In this document: one piece after another, positions 33,252-36,755 of the stretch
Layout: every line of letters starts with the position of its first letter
How positions within the stretch are numbered: the first letter of the stretch is position 1
Assembly (NCBI RefSeq): GCF_019396355.1
Contig: NZ_JAHKRK010000006.1
Location: 1 to 64,000, forward strand
From: Pseudonocardia nigra
GTDB taxonomy: Bacteria; Actinomycetota; Actinomycetes; Mycobacteriales; Pseudonocardiaceae
Direction: 5' to 3'
Length of the DNA: 64,000 nt
The notes under the pieces: generated by a model
Databases searched by the model: none
What the model was told of the DNA's origin: nothing
Seen by the model: only the letters and a program-made list of their open reading frames with translations
Program-made: the position numbers and the translations under genes

Positions 33252-34706
33252 TCACCCGGACCGGCGGGGCAGGGGGTCGTCCGGGGTGATCACCGGCTCG
33301 GTGAACCAGCGGTCGTCGGCGAAGGCGTCGGTGTCGTCGACGAGGTAGGCGGGGCGGCGGTGTTCCCGCTCGCTGCCCCCGGCTGCGCCGCCCATCCCGA
33401 CGGGTGGGAAGTAGCCGTGCCCGAGGCCGGTGCGTGGCGTGCCTCCCGAACGCGCCGGCTCGCCCGACGCCGCGGTCGAGGTCGCCGGTCGCTCGGCGGG
33501 GGAGCCGGATGCGGGCGGGCGGAGCTCCGGCGAGGGGCGTGGAGCACCTCCGGCCGAGCCGGGAACGGCCGGCCCGCCGGCGCCGCCGCGGCCGCGCTCG
33601 GGCGGCGGCGTTCGGGAGTCGACGACGGCGGGCGCCGAGCGCCAGCCGGGCGTGGCCGAGCCGGGCTGGGGGACCGCGGGGACGACGGGCCGGAAGGGTG
33701 CGCCCGCCGGACCGGCCGAGCCGCCCTGCTGCCGGCCCGTCCCTGGTGCGGCCGACGATCCCGGTGCCCGCCCTGTTCCACCGCCGCTCGCTGTGAGGCC
33801 GCCGGGCACGGCCGCGACAGGCGTGCCGCTGCCCGTACCGATGCCGCTGCCGCCGTTCCCGGTGGGGACCGGTGCCCCGCGGCCGGGTGCGGCAGCGGGC
33901 CCCGGTCCCGTGGGGCCAACACCTGCGGCGCCGAACCCGCCGGGCGCGGCGGGAACGACGGGTGGAGCCGCGCCGGGCGCGCTGCCGGCGGCCGGGGAAG
34001 CGGGGGAAGCAGGGGGAGGCGGGGTGGCGAGGGACGCGCCGGGACCGGCGGCGCCGGGTGTGGCGACGCTTCCGGGCAGGTGGCCCGCGCCGCCGATTTC
34101 CGCCGGACCCCGACCGCCGGCGTCCCATCCGGGCGAGGACCCGACGCCCTCCCCGCCGGCGGGGGCCGCTGCGACGTCGACGGTGACCGCCAGCGGCCGG
34201 CCCATCGGGTACATGTGGGGCTTGTTCTGCGCGGAGCCGCTGCCGTAGTTCTCCATCGCGTCGACGGCCTGCTGGGCCAGCCGGTCGCGTTCGGCGTCGG
34301 CCGCCGCCCAGTCCGGATCGAGCGCAGCTCCGTCCTTGGGCGACAGTCCCGGCGACTCCTCCGGGACAGAATTCTGCGGAGGCGGCGGCACGCTGTTGCG
34401 CATGGTGGCGACGAGCTCCGCCTGGCGTTCGAGGGCCTGCGCCGTTCGCGCCGCGTGCCGCACCGCCTGCGTGGCCCAGTCGCCGAGCGGGGTGAGACCG
34501 GACCGCGTGGAGTCCGCCGCCGCACCTTCCCAGCTCCCCGCGAGCCGGGCGGTCGCGGCAGCGAGGTTCGTGTCGATCTCCCGGAGCCGGCGCTCGACGT
34601 CGAGCCAGAGCGTCTGCGCGTCGACGGAGGCGAGATGGCCCGGACCGGCGGTGACGAGTTGGTGGATCTCCTGGTGGCTGAAGCCCTTCCACCGGATGTC
34701 GCTCAC
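33252..34706 (-). CDS. WXG/PPE-like helical protein with Pro/Gly/Ala-rich C-terminus
   Basis: This 484-residue protein has a helical N-terminal domain (about residues 1-140) with GSWEGAAADS, a WxG turn as in WXG100/PPE-type substrates of type VII (ESX) secretion. About 280 residues of Gly/Pro/Ala-rich low complexity follow, and a conserved-looking acidic tail (AYLVDDTDAFADDRWFTEPV) ends it. It has no signal peptide. GTG 34706 overlaps the stop of the 110-residue gene (GTGA), so the two are probably made together and may pair like PE/PPE partners. No ESX core genes (eccC, eccD, mycP) are in the window. Export through an ESX system elsewhere is inferred. Confidence 0.8.
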   Translation of the reverse strand: MSDIRWKGFSHQEIHQLVTAGPGHLASVDAQTLWLDVERRLREIDTNLAAATARLAGSWEGAAADSTRSGLTPLGDWATQAVRHAARTAQALERQAELVATMRNSVPPPPQNSVPEESPGLSPKDGAALDPDWAAADAERDRLAQQAVDAMENYGSGSAQNKPHMYPMGRPLAVTVDVAAAPAGGEGVGSSPGWDAGGRGPAEIGGAGHLPGSVATPGAAGPGASLATPPPPASPASPAAGSAPGAAPPVVPAAPGGFGAAGVGPTGPGPAAAPGRGAPVPTGNGGSGIGTGSGTPVAAVPGGLTASGGGTGRAPGSSAAPGTGRQQGGSAGPAGAPFRPVVPAVPQPGSATPGWRSAPAVVDSRTPPPERGRGGAGGPAVPGSAGGAPRPSPELRPPASGSPAERPATSTAASGEPARSGGTPRTGLGHGYFPPVGMGGAAGGSEREHRRPAYLVDDTDAFADDRWFTEPVITPDDPLPRRSG

Positions 34707-35035
34707 AGCCGCCCCCACTGATCGGCCACGACGTCCTGGGTGTACACGTAGTCGTCCTCCATACGTTTGAGGGAATCGACGACCTTGATCAGCTCCTGCT
34801 CGTACAGGCGAAGTGCCTCGTAGGCCGAGTACGCGCCGTCCATGACCTCGTGGTTGTAGTGCTCCGTCATGGCGATGCTGATGTCGTCGGCGGCCCAAGG
34901 CTCCGGCAACCGCCCCCTGTTCCGGGCGTCCATCAGCAGGGGGCGGAAGTCCTGGAGCGCCCTTTCGTAGGCAGCACGGAGGATGGGAAGTGCGTGCGCC
35001 TCGATCCGGAGGGTGAGACTGGGTCGGTCGGACAC
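34703..35035 (-). CDS. Small helical protein, copy 1, partner of the WXG/PPE-like protein
   Basis: This 110-residue all-helical protein has shared blocks LPEPWAADDISIAMTEHYN and EVMDGxxSxYxALRxYEQEL, also found in its paralogue at 35753. The C-terminal helix LKRMEDDYVYTQ occupies the place where ESX substrates carry YxxxD/E; here the +4 residue is Gln, so the motif is imperfect. It is coupled to the WXG/PPE-like gene through a GTGA overlap and preceded by a DUF3558 lipoprotein gene. A PE/EsxA-like dimer partner role is inferred from size, helicity and coupling; no family name can be given. Confidence 0.8.
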   Translation of the reverse strand: MSDRPSLTLRIEAHALPILRAAYERALQDFRPLLMDARNRGRLPEPWAADDISIAMTEHYNHEVMDGAYSAYEALRLYEQELIKVVDSLKRMEDDYVYTQDVVADQWGRL

Positions 35036-35106
35036 GCGTGCCTCCGCTCGCCAGGCCGGGATTGTGTTCCCGACGCTACCGAGCGAAACGGGCGCGTACC
35101 CGGTTC

Positions 35107-35128
35107 CGCCGGAAACGCTTTGCGATCG
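35107..35128 (-). promoter_or_regulatory. Conserved spacer motif AAACGCTTTGCGATCG, copy 1
   Basis: AAACGCTTTGCGATCG is in the gap between the helical gene (copy 1) and DUF3558 copy 1; its twin, with A for G, is at 36152-36170. It is the most conserved part of the two otherwise different spacers. It could be a regulatory site or a relic of the duplication. Confidence 0.4.
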
Positions 35129-35140
35129 TGAATGGTCAGA

Positions 35141-35710
35141 TCAGCGGGAGAGCAGAGTGGTGAGGACCTGCTCTGCCACCTCGACGGCGTCGCGGCAGAG
35201 CTGGTCCTGCGGAATCGGGGGCAACCTACCTCCGTCGGCGAACTGCACGTCGAGGAACTGGCCATCGGCGACGTCGACGTCCACCGAGCAGAAGTCGGGG
35301 TTCTTGGGTCGAGCGAGGATTGCCGGGAACCCTGCGATGGTGATGGGGGTGATCTCGTCAGTGAGAGCGTCAGAGTTGGTGAGTACCTCGATGCCGTTGC
35401 CAGTGGCCAAGGCCAATCCGACGGCGACTGCCCGGGGCTCGAATCCGCTGATCGAGCAGGCCGGGCCGGCGAACCCGGGTGCGGTGCTCCTGTAGGGGAC
35501 GGGATCGCCGTCCAGACCGAGCGATGCCCGCTGATCCGGGGTCAGCAGCGCGCACGGGTCGACGCCGTCGAGGGGGAGTTCGTGTGGCCGGGGCGGCAGG
35601 GCGAGCCCGGTCGGTTCGGGGGCGGGGGCGGGTTCGGCGCGTCCGGGGGTCTCTGCCGAACATGCCGCGAGCAGGGCCGCGGTGGCGATCAGCAGGAGGA
35701 CACGGCGCAC
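35141..35710 (-). CDS. DUF3558 lipoprotein, copy 1
   Basis: This 189-residue lipoprotein has signal LLLIATAALLAAC (lipobox Cys 16). The DUF3558 core DPCALLTPDQRASLGL is at about residues 52-67, with two more Cys (CSISG; FCSVDVDVADGQ) that could form disulfides. DUF3558 proteins are secreted actinobacterial lipoproteins of unknown role, often near ESX-type helical proteins. The second copy at 36177 shares the same order of motifs. It is separated from the 110-residue gene by 105 nt. Confidence 0.9.
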   Translation of the reverse strand: MRRVLLLIATAALLAACSAETPGRAEPAPAPEPTGLALPPRPHELPLDGVDPCALLTPDQRASLGLDGDPVPYRSTAPGFAGPACSISGFEPRAVAVGLALATGNGIEVLTNSDALTDEITPITIAGFPAILARPKNPDFCSVDVDVADGQFLDVQFADGGRLPPIPQDQLCRDAVEVAEQVLTTLLSR

Positions 35711-35752
35711 TGGACCGACGCTAGCGCAGCGCGGCGGTGCAGCGGTGGTCGT

Positions 35753-36085
35753 TCACAGGTGCTTCCACTGGTCGGCGACGGCCTGCTCGGTGTTGCGGTA
35801 GTCGTCTTCCATGCGCTTGAGGGTGTCGACGATGGTGAGTAGCTCCTGCTCGTAGGCACGCAGGGCGGCGTAGGTGGAGTGGGGGCCGTCCATGACCTCG
35901 CGGTTGTAGTGCTCCGTCATGGCGATGCTGATGTCATCGGCGGCCCATGGCTCCGGCAGCCGACCTCGTCGCCGAATGGTCGCCAGGAGATCTATCAGAT
36001 CGACAGCTGCACGTTCGTAAGCGGCCCGGAGAGCGGGTAGGGCGTGAGGTTCGGTTCGGAGGGTGAGTGTTGCGTGGTACACCAT
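35753..36085 (-). CDS. Small helical protein, copy 2
   Basis: This 110-residue paralogue of the gene at 34703 has the same length and the same LPEPWAADDISIAMTEHYN block. Its C-terminal helix reads LKRMEDDYRNTEQAV, giving a Y-x3-E match to the ESX signal YxxxD/E that copy 1 lacks. ATG 36085 gives exact length agreement with copy 1. It is not followed by its own WXG/PPE-like gene; instead the next gene downstream is DUF3558 copy 1, so copy 2 may share the single partner or be an immunity- or chaperone-like relic. Confidence 0.8.
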   Translation of the reverse strand: MVYHATLTLRTEPHALPALRAAYERAAVDLIDLLATIRRRGRLPEPWAADDISIAMTEHYNREVMDGPHSTYAALRAYEQELLTIVDTLKRMEDDYRNTEQAVADQWKHL

Positions 36086-36151
36086 GCCTCCATAGATCGA
36101 GAGGAACCTGTCCGAGGTTACTGACTGCGGGAGGCCGAGGCGCCGCTGAAG

Positions 36152-36170
36152 GCAAAACGCTTTGCAATCG
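36152..36170 (-). promoter_or_regulatory. Conserved spacer motif AAACGCTTTGCAATCG, copy 2
   Basis: This is the same motif as at 35107-35128, in the matching spacer between helical copy 2 and DUF3558 copy 2. Confidence 0.4.
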
Positions 36171-36176
36171 CGAACT

Positions 36177-36755
36177 TCAACCAATTCCCAGTGTGGTGAC
36201 GGCCTGTTCAGCGACTTCGATGGCGCCGCGGCACAACTCGTCCTGGGCGATCGGGGGTGTGCGGCCGCCGTCTGCGAACTGCACATCGATGAACTGACCC
36301 TCGGCGGTGTCGATGTCCACGGAGCAGAAGTCGGCGCTCGCAGGACGGGCGAGGAGCGCGGGGAAACCCGCAACGGTGATGGGCGTGATGTCGTCGGTCG
36401 TCGCGCCGGGACCGGTGAGCACGCCGATCCCACTGCCGGTCACGAGCGCGATGTTGATCGCCACAGCCCGGGGTTGGTAGCCGCGGATGGAACAGGCCGG
36501 GCCGACGAAACCGGGAGCAGTGCTTCTCGAACGTGAGGAATCGTCTGTCAACCCGAGGGTCTCCCGTTGCGTCGGTGTGAGCAGTGCGCACGGGTCGACG
36601 TCGTCGAGCGGGAGTTCGCGCGGCCGGGGCGGCAGCACGAGTCCCGTCGGTTCGGCGGCCGTGGGGGCGGGGGCGGGTTCGGCGCTTCCCGGCGTCCCCG
36701 CCGAGCAGGCCGTGAGCAGGACCGCGGCGGCGATCAGCGGCAGGGCGCGGCGCAC
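36177..36755 (-). CDS. DUF3558 lipoprotein, copy 2
   Basis: This 192-residue lipoprotein is paralogous to the gene at 35141: signal with lipobox LLTAC (Cys 16), then LPLDDVDPCALLTPTQRETLGL in the same place (motif split: PLDDVDP and CALLTPTQRETLGL). The Cys pattern CSIRG and FCSVDIDTAEGQ matches copy 1. It is first in the minus-strand set of five genes. A start ATG/GTG at 36755 places a positively charged n-region before the hydrophobic stretch. Confidence 0.9.
   Translation of the reverse strand: MRRALPLIAAAVLLTACSAGTPGSAEPAPAPTAAEPTGLVLPPRPRELPLDDVDPCALLTPTQRETLGLTDDSSRSRSTAPGFVGPACSIRGYQPRAVAINIALVTGSGIGVLTGPGATTDDITPITVAGFPALLARPASADFCSVDIDTAEGQFIDVQFADGGRTPPIAQDELCRGAIEVAEQAVTTLGIG

Follow-up and report, generated by a model that had tools for sequence, protein, structure and literature searches.

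What is encoded by two tandem pairs of a lipoprotein and a small helical protein that precede a single WxG protein? Such a set lies on the minus strand at positions 33252-36755 of a 64,000-nucleotide stretch of Pseudonocardia nigra DNA (assembly GCF_019396355.1, contig NZ_JAHKRK010000006.1, positions 1 to 64,000; hereafter the window), where a sequence-only reading had seen a specialised secretion cassette. Our analyses support reading it as a PE-PPE substrate set for type VII secretion that is linked to a Sec-exported DUF3558 lipoprotein, to which we give a probability of about 0.72. The order of transcription, taken from the open reading frame (ORF) list and its translations, is L2-H2-L1-H1-P, where L denotes the DUF3558 lipoprotein, H the 110-aa PE-like helical protein and P the PPE-domain protein (E is used for EspG). 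The two pairs and the single WxG protein were found as five minus-strand ORFs, as first described, and helical copy 1 indeed overlaps the effector gene, by 4 nt (GTGA). All five frames are open, and the copies share 68% identity (H1 and H2) and 71% identity (L1 and L2). The genes are:

36177-36755, minus strand: L2, DUF3558 lipoprotein copy 2; 192 aa; Pfam DUF3558 94.5 bits; lipobox LLTAC by eye
35753-36085, minus strand: H2, PE-like helical protein copy 2; 110 aa; YxxxE = YRNTE, codons 35786-35800
35141-35710, minus strand: L1, DUF3558 lipoprotein copy 1; 189 aa; Pfam DUF3558 101.5 bits; lipobox LLAAC by eye
34703-35035, minus strand: H1, PE-like helical protein copy 1; 110 aa; YxxxQ = YVYTQ, codons 34736-34750
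33252-34706, minus strand: P, PPE-domain protein; 484 aa; WxG at residues 59-61, codons 34524-34532; Gly/Pro/Ala-rich middle

Families of the three proteins

P passes the Pfam PPE (PF00823) cut-off of 26, with 35.5 bits for the whole protein (E 1.3e-8) and 39.3 bits for the domain alone, and 56/60 of its relatives match the same family. PPE4 (1.1e-8) and PPE41 (4.4e-8) are matched by a profile of the P family along almost the full length of the domain. The WxG motif, WEG at residues 59-61, falls between helices 2 and 3 as placed by the profile alignment, and over the 60 relatives its tryptophan is invariant and its glycine nearly so. The earlier label of a WxG/PPE-like effector was therefore right about the WxG and can be sharpened to a PPE-domain protein above the Pfam cut-off.

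The N-terminal domain of P is not its only conserved part. Following a low-complexity stretch, P ends in a tail shared with its relatives, which is YLVDDxxAFxDDRWFxPAVITPDD-like within the genus and YLVxxDDVFGDxxxVAPPVIG-like in many other genera:

33276-33359, minus strand: conserved C-terminal tail of P, RRPAYLVDDTDAFADDRWFTEPVITPDD; tail-end pattern present in 71/86 PPE ORFs

Shuffled tails gave a mean of 2.0 and a largest value of 7 for the same pattern, which was made after the tails were seen; the 15 ORFs without it include some that are cut or frame-shifted. This tail bears on the possibility that P is a toxin exported by type VII secretion, that the DUF3558 lipoproteins are surface immunity proteins and that the duplicated pairs provide spare immunity. 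Such an arrangement would fit the predicted surface location of L, the existence of L-H pairs without P, and the small helical partners of LXG-type type VII toxins (PMC11217815). However, a low-complexity C-terminal part ending in a widely kept tail is the reverse of a polymorphic toxin end, no toxin domain was found in P in Pfam or NCBIfam, where the only matches were of PPE, WXG100 and EspB_PPE type, and no recurring toxin gene was seen by eye in the downstream gene lists. We regard a toxin-immunity role as very improbable.

Evidence on H comes mostly from its relatives. Pfam PE (PF00934) is matched by 55/68 aligned H relatives at E up to 1 (best 2e-5), compared with 6/68 for WXG100 in Pfam; NCBIfam WXG100_ESAT6 matches 18/68 at E up to 1, and H2 itself has a weak, below-cut-off match to TIGR03930 (E 0.042). 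A PDB search with the 68-member H profile returned PE25 chains first (0.006-0.008), aligned at a conserved D-x-V-S and at YxxxE. A scan of 150 genomes of the order with the H profile gave matches in 14 genomes from outside the family. In 11 fetched loci of these other families H was followed by PPE in 8 and by EspG in 3, with DUF3558 in 0 (within about 1.5 kb). By these Pfam PE matches, the PE25 profile match and the PPE-following loci of other families, H is a diverged PE-like protein, which we do not class as a canonical PE, and a plausible partner of the PPE-domain protein.

The two lipoproteins score 101.5 (L1) and 94.5 bits (L2) against the DUF3558 (PF12079) cut-off of 34.1, with a lipobox in each by eye, and 41/41 aligned L relatives match DUF3558. 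The lipobox cysteine is kept in 90% or more of the 41 relatives, and C48, C80, C136 and C167 (numbering of A6) are invariant over them; together, these cysteines suggest that L is anchored by a lipid and lies outside the cytoplasm, where it would have two disulfides. No relatives of DUF3558 were found by sequence in the PDB up to E = 1. In the literature searched, DUF3558 was named only in a mouse germ-cell paper, and no link to PE-PPE-EspG was found.

Linkage in the genome and across the family

If L, H and P form a functional set, their genes should be associated beyond the window. The draft genome comprises 8.49 Mb in 601 contigs, with 96% completeness and 5.6% contamination. It contains four matches to the helical family, 4/4 of which adjoin a DUF3558 gene, and each of the four above-cut-off DUF3558 genes lies beside an H gene; this one-to-one pairing indicates that the adjacency of L and H is not due to chance. 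Two weaker, below-cut-off DUF3558 matches are not next to H. Two of the L-H pairs are in the window, one is on contig C54 and one on contig C575, and no PPE gene follows the C54 and C575 pairs.

Across the family Pseudonocardiaceae, H is present in 97/150 genomes, and in the genus in 33/62. Neighbourhoods were taken from 60 fetched regions (L051-L053 from the genus) and 36 more from genus genomes (a 37th, L184, was unused); they were searched with profiles grown from the window genes and were chosen from match lists, so that they are not a random sample. Neighbours of H were scored on the same strand within 3.5 kb. Left out of the resulting 109 H genes were L018 and L019, which duplicate G193 contigs, and L020, a further G193 contig where DUF3558 lies beside an H that is cut by the contig end and is not scorable for YxxxE. 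The neighbours were L+P+E in 49 cases, L+P in 26, P+E in 17, L only in 13, P only in 1 and none in 3, so that L was near 88 of the 109 H genes, P near 93 and EspG near 66. All three H genes without a neighbour, and two of the 13 with L only, are at contig ends. The 26 H genes with L and P and no EspG are all from the genus except L068, and since some of these loci are at contig ends, an EspG there cannot be excluded.

The usual gene order outside the genus is L-H-P-EspG. A second order, H-L-P-EspG, occurs at L070, L103, L106, L108 and L110, where H is more diverged. Two forms are common in the genus, H-P-EspG with no L and L-H-P with no EspG; L-H by itself is found too, and a single locus (L155) has the full L-H-P-EspG. 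The window has the L-H-P form without EspG, with the L-H pair doubled. The expectation that the genes co-occur in other genomes was thus borne out (88/109 for L, 93/109 for P). The idea of a specialised secretion cassette stands in its linkage and in the plausible partnership of H and P, and is refined in that H is PE-like, the set is a PE-PPE cassette plus DUF3558, and EspG usually follows outside the genus. One effector per cassette describes the single P of the window and does not extend to the 13/109 H genes that have L only.

DUF3558 and EspG were also seen together without reference to H, in lists with the best matches of each over 25 genomes searched. In the ten of these that are single-contig genomes of the family, 41/64 listed DUF3558 genes have a listed EspG no more than 8 kb away (1.3 on average and at most 8 in 2000 trials of random placement). 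Of the listed EspG genes, 34/75 are preceded by a listed DUF3558 at up to 5 kb on the same strand (0.17 on average and at most 2 with random placement). In G021, EspG is about 2 kb downstream or closer for 7/8 H genes. No relatives of H were found on plasmids.

The uneven presence of P and E raises the possibility that L-H is a unit of its own, a lipoprotein with an exported PE-like protein, for which PPE and EspG are optional clients and which in the window sits beside a PPE gene. The 13/109 H genes with only L, the C54 and C575 pairs without P, and the fact that L-H is what duplicates would all be expected of such a unit. The presence of P within 3.5 kb of 93/109 H genes, the 4-nt overlap of H1 and P, and the 17 H genes with P and E and no L, which point to an H-P link independent of L, are not, and we consider it rather unlikely that L-H stands alone in this way.

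Secretion machinery elsewhere in the genome

The sequence-only reading had noted the lack of local ESX core genes. EccB and EccC indeed have no match at the window locus and both are found elsewhere, although EccD and EccE were not searched for. EccB is on contig C327, beside a subtilase gene in the mycosin position, and a long EccC is on contig C87. By eye, the genes near EccB read as truA, rplQ, rpoA and ribosomal genes, presumably an ESX-4 neighbourhood. The single above-cut-off EspG of the genome is on contig C491 (171-881; its ORF starts at base 117 of C491). The LDPDWAAADAERDRLAQQAVDAMENY stretch of P resembles by eye the same part of EspG-linked PPE proteins of the genus (for example at L155, L166 and L170), and in an alignment many EspG-linked proteins of other genera have LxHLFGGQTDYE at the corresponding place. 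From this resemblance, P may still use the EspG of contig C491.

A small-gene cluster with a WXG-type protein was also observed on contig C77 (L017, 3-1464), running off the contig start, and looks like another type VII substrate locus. Its match to PPE is weak (E 0.0065, below the cut-off), and it was not retained as a PPE gene, being by sequence another WXG-type protein at a contig edge.

The sequences show the families, the linkage, the export signal and its loss, the tandem recurrence, the conversion tracts and the conserved site; for pairing, export, the use of EspG and EccC, the role of the lipoprotein and regulation, we propose the following course. H and P would pair in the cytoplasm through helical hairpins, and WxG in P together with YxxxE in H would make up a composite export signal. 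EspG from the other locus (contig C491) would cap the tip of P, and the machine of EccB, EccC and mycosin encoded elsewhere (C327 and C87) would export the H-P pair. L would be exported by Sec, lipid-anchored and disulfide-bonded, and would most likely receive, anchor or help assemble the exported pair at the cell surface.

Observations against the assignment

Several observations weigh against a PE-PPE substrate set. At the level of the proteins, neither H1 nor H2 has Pro-Glu within about 10 N-terminal residues, and singly neither has a Pfam match at E up to 10; H is called PE-like and not PE because these letters are absent and the window copies have no PE match alone. P likewise has no Pro-Pro-Glu near its N-terminus, which is why it is named a PPE-domain protein. 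According to published work, these N-terminal letters should not be the sole criterion for PE and PPE proteins (PMC7028111). In the PDB search, a designed helix bundle (0.0088) and a DASH-complex subunit (0.011) score near PE25, all with modest E-values, and since these helical proteins are unrelated, the profile match is supportive only. At the level of the genes, no EspG lies beside the pair at the window locus, and the single-contig genome G092 has no DUF3558-EspG pair among the matches listed (0/3 and 0/4). G122, a genus draft that is 99% complete and has a tandem locus, has no EspG among the matches listed, so that EspG may not be needed. The H genes with L and no P (13/109) and with P and E and no L (17/109) also belong here.

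The last such observation concerns the export signal. YxxxE or YxxxD is kept in 108/109 distinct assessable H proteins (110/111 rows when the duplicates L018 and L019 are counted), and the sole exception is H1 of the window, the P-coupled copy, in which YxxxQ has no acidic residue. That only copy 2 has the signal is correct for the window (YRNTE against YVYTQ). Loss of YxxxE in the PPE-coupled copy was considered as a rule and is refuted, since both copies keep YxxxE in the five other tandem loci (G122, G160, G171, G204 and G166); the change is private to this genome. Because H1 has lost the acidic signal residue, P would probably be exported mainly with H2, or H1 may work weakly or be decaying.

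Decay could also have affected the locus as a whole, with the window, C54 and C575 copies being drifting parts of an old cassette that lost its EspG. The missing acidic residue in H1 alone among 109 distinct relatives and the absence of EspG from the window locus would agree with this, as would base composition, as the cassette genes have a third-position GC of 0.77-0.86 compared with 0.95-0.96 in three other window genes. Five open frames, however, with the cysteines, the WxG, the tail and both operator-like sites kept, and the recurrence of the L+P class without EspG in 26 H genes, argue against a remnant, which we judge quite improbable.

Tandem duplication and probable gene conversion

What duplicates is the L-H pair. 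The order L-H-L-H-P is found in the window and in G122, G160, G171, G204 and G166, the PPE gene of G204 being truncated at a contig end. The window copies group with those of C54 and C575 in one clade of the H tree (96/91), and the G122 pair forms a clade of its own (99/85). The PPE-adjacent H copies of G160 and G171 are sisters (100/99), as are the upstream L genes in the L tree (97/88), which indicates a shared duplication. The G204 and G166 copies fall elsewhere in the trees, and the window group is weak in the L tree (83/51). The tandem order seems to have arisen at least three times, though gene conversion can draw the copies of one genome together in such trees. In L157, L162 and L165, L-H pairs without P were observed about 4-7 kb from a further L-H pair of the same genome (G180, G169 and G178), which suggests ongoing amplification of the pair.

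DNA comparisons between tandem copies showed that the 3' half of H can be identical while the 5' half differs. Stretches of complete identity, 189 bp long in G122 and 104 bp in G204, were each reached in 0/1000 codon shuffles; H1 and H2 of the window share 34 bp exactly (2/1000 shuffles) and 63 bp with at most two mismatches (0/1000):

35885-35947, minus strand: copy-2 side of a probable gene-conversion tract; 63 bp, at most 2 mismatches, reached in 0/1000 codon shuffles
34835-34897, minus strand: copy-1 side of the probable gene-conversion tract; covers 14/18 residues of the LPEPWAADDISIAMTEHY block

The statistic covered five loci, G166 being left out as its copies align with gaps at 56% identity, and it was not significant in G160 (100/1000 shuffles) and G171 (317 and 539/1000). 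Segmental gene conversion in the window, G122 and G204 is probable, with the 3' half homogenised and the helix-1 half diverged; this division of the tandem PE-like genes was observed at L052, at L149 and in H1/H2 of the window. Gene conversion explains the identical LPEPWAADDISIAMTEHY block of the two copies. Since most of this block lies inside the conversion-like tract, its identity alone is no sign of function, and its interpretation as a functional epitope was dropped.

Comparison with known systems

The closest known system is the mycobacterial PE-PPE-EspG set, such as PE25-PPE41-EspG5. The two are alike in that a PE-like gene directly precedes the PPE gene, the PPE protein has WxG and the PE-like protein YxxxD/E (H1 of the window excepted), the PPE domain aligns over nearly its whole length, and EspG follows in most cassettes examined outside the genus. 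In contrast to the mycobacterial set, the N-terminal PE and PPE letters are absent here, P has a conserved C-terminal tail, and the window has no local EspG. A DUF3558 gene is added, which is absent within about 1.5 kb in the 11 other-family loci, and the hosts are in an order reported to be without mycolic acids (PMC4791881).

The same study, from 2016, reports that ESX-4 clusters are present in orders without mycolates, Pseudonocardiales among them. It also describes clusters of pe, ppe and espG in producers of mycolic acids other than Mycobacterium (Nocardia, Tsukamurella and Segniliparus), and proposes that pe, ppe and espG genes were added to plasmid-borne ESX (PMC4791881). Those are the same genes outside Mycobacterium, but they sit within ESX core clusters, whereas the window locus has no EccB or EccC and has DUF3558 added (PMC4791881). 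One review calls PE/PPE proteins unique to mycobacteria (PMC12209268), and another notes that no PE/PPE orthologues were found in monoderms. As pe, ppe and espG outside Mycobacterium were already published, what looks new is that the genes are linked to DUF3558, form scattered cassettes and occur in mycolate-free hosts. No description of PE-PPE-EspG cassettes with DUF3558 in Pseudonocardiaceae was found in the literature searched, which left most subscription papers outside, and databases may annotate single genes. The claim that no system of this form was described thus survives for the variant and fails for a new kind of system.

Two further systems are less similar. For LXG toxins with Lap partners (T7SSb), too, the gene of a small helical partner lies next to that of a larger exported protein (PMC11217815), but P is PPE and not LXG and has no recognised toxin domain. 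WXG100/ESAT-6 pairs resemble H in being small helical proteins with a C-terminal YxxxE, and H2 has its weak TIGR03930 match; H is nevertheless below the cut-off and the PE matches outnumber those to WXG100. L, for its part, is like the DUF3558 lipoproteins by Pfam membership and lipobox.

PE/PPE proteins are often thought to serve the mycolic-acid outer membrane, and these hosts are reported without mycolic acids. What is most useful in the results is how common genes for PE-like, PPE and EspG proteins are in such bacteria, and that they are tied to a lipoprotein: cassettes widespread in Pseudonocardiaceae bear on ideas of the origin and purpose of PE/PPE proteins, and these harmless soil bacteria offer hosts for testing such ideas. 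As a steady partner of these genes, the lipoprotein would place DUF3558 in a functional context for the first time. A broader account, which we advance tentatively and hold at somewhat less than even odds, is that DUF3558 lipoproteins are an undescribed accessory class dedicated to PE-PPE pairs, and that PE-PPE-EspG sets are an old substrate system of mycolate-free Pseudonocardiaceae, scattered over the chromosome, which depends on a single ESX-4-like machine and which in Pseudonocardia is run as one regulon defined by the operator. PE/PPE proteins would then not have arisen to cross the mycomembrane; L-H would have been amplified and partly homogenised with its helix-1 half diverging, and one PE-like copy of the window would now be a non-signalling partner.

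A candidate operator upstream of H

In the spacers between L and H, we found a near-palindrome close to TTCGCGATCGCGAA:

36161-36174, minus strand: operator-like near-palindrome TTCGCGATTGCAAA, between L2 and H2
35119-35132, minus strand: operator-like near-palindrome TTCACGATCGCAAA, between L1 and H1

Within the genus, the 150 nt that precede the H domain contain a TTCGCGATCGCGAA-like site (at most 3 mismatches) in 24/38 cases with L and 8/11 without L, two H genes at contig ends being left out of the counts. Since L-H spacers served to define the pattern, the genes with L do not test it independently, and the 8/11 without L is a fairer test. In other genera the site was found in 1/43 with L and 0/15 without L, before DUF3558 domains of the genus in 0/41, and in random 150-bp windows of genus loci in 91/4400. 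A degenerate form has exactly two matches in the window, both in L-H spacers (expectation 0.26; at least two in 4/100 shuffles). The C54 spacer of the same genome lacks the site. The near-palindrome is a candidate operator of a regulon, and scattered cassettes could be switched together via this site upstream of the H genes. A shared upstream site gives a handle on regulation, and the 14-mer was not found in the literature searched. A search around the locus found no sigma-70-type promoters or terminators, and the RNA folds of the L-H spacers (z = -2.8 for L1-H1 and +0.4 for L2-H2) indicate no shared RNA structure.

Over the whole genome, the degenerate form has seven matches, three of them in L-H spacers, and a reversed-pattern control has none. 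The other sites include one located 111 bp ahead of a gene for a product that by eye looks secreted, one inside a long ORF of C26 and one overlapping a short ORF of C584. A further site, on contig C105 (L221) at 1501, begins 66 bp before the gene for a 254-aa protein with no Pfam match, which is followed by a weak DUF6802 match; this gene is a possible further member of the regulon.

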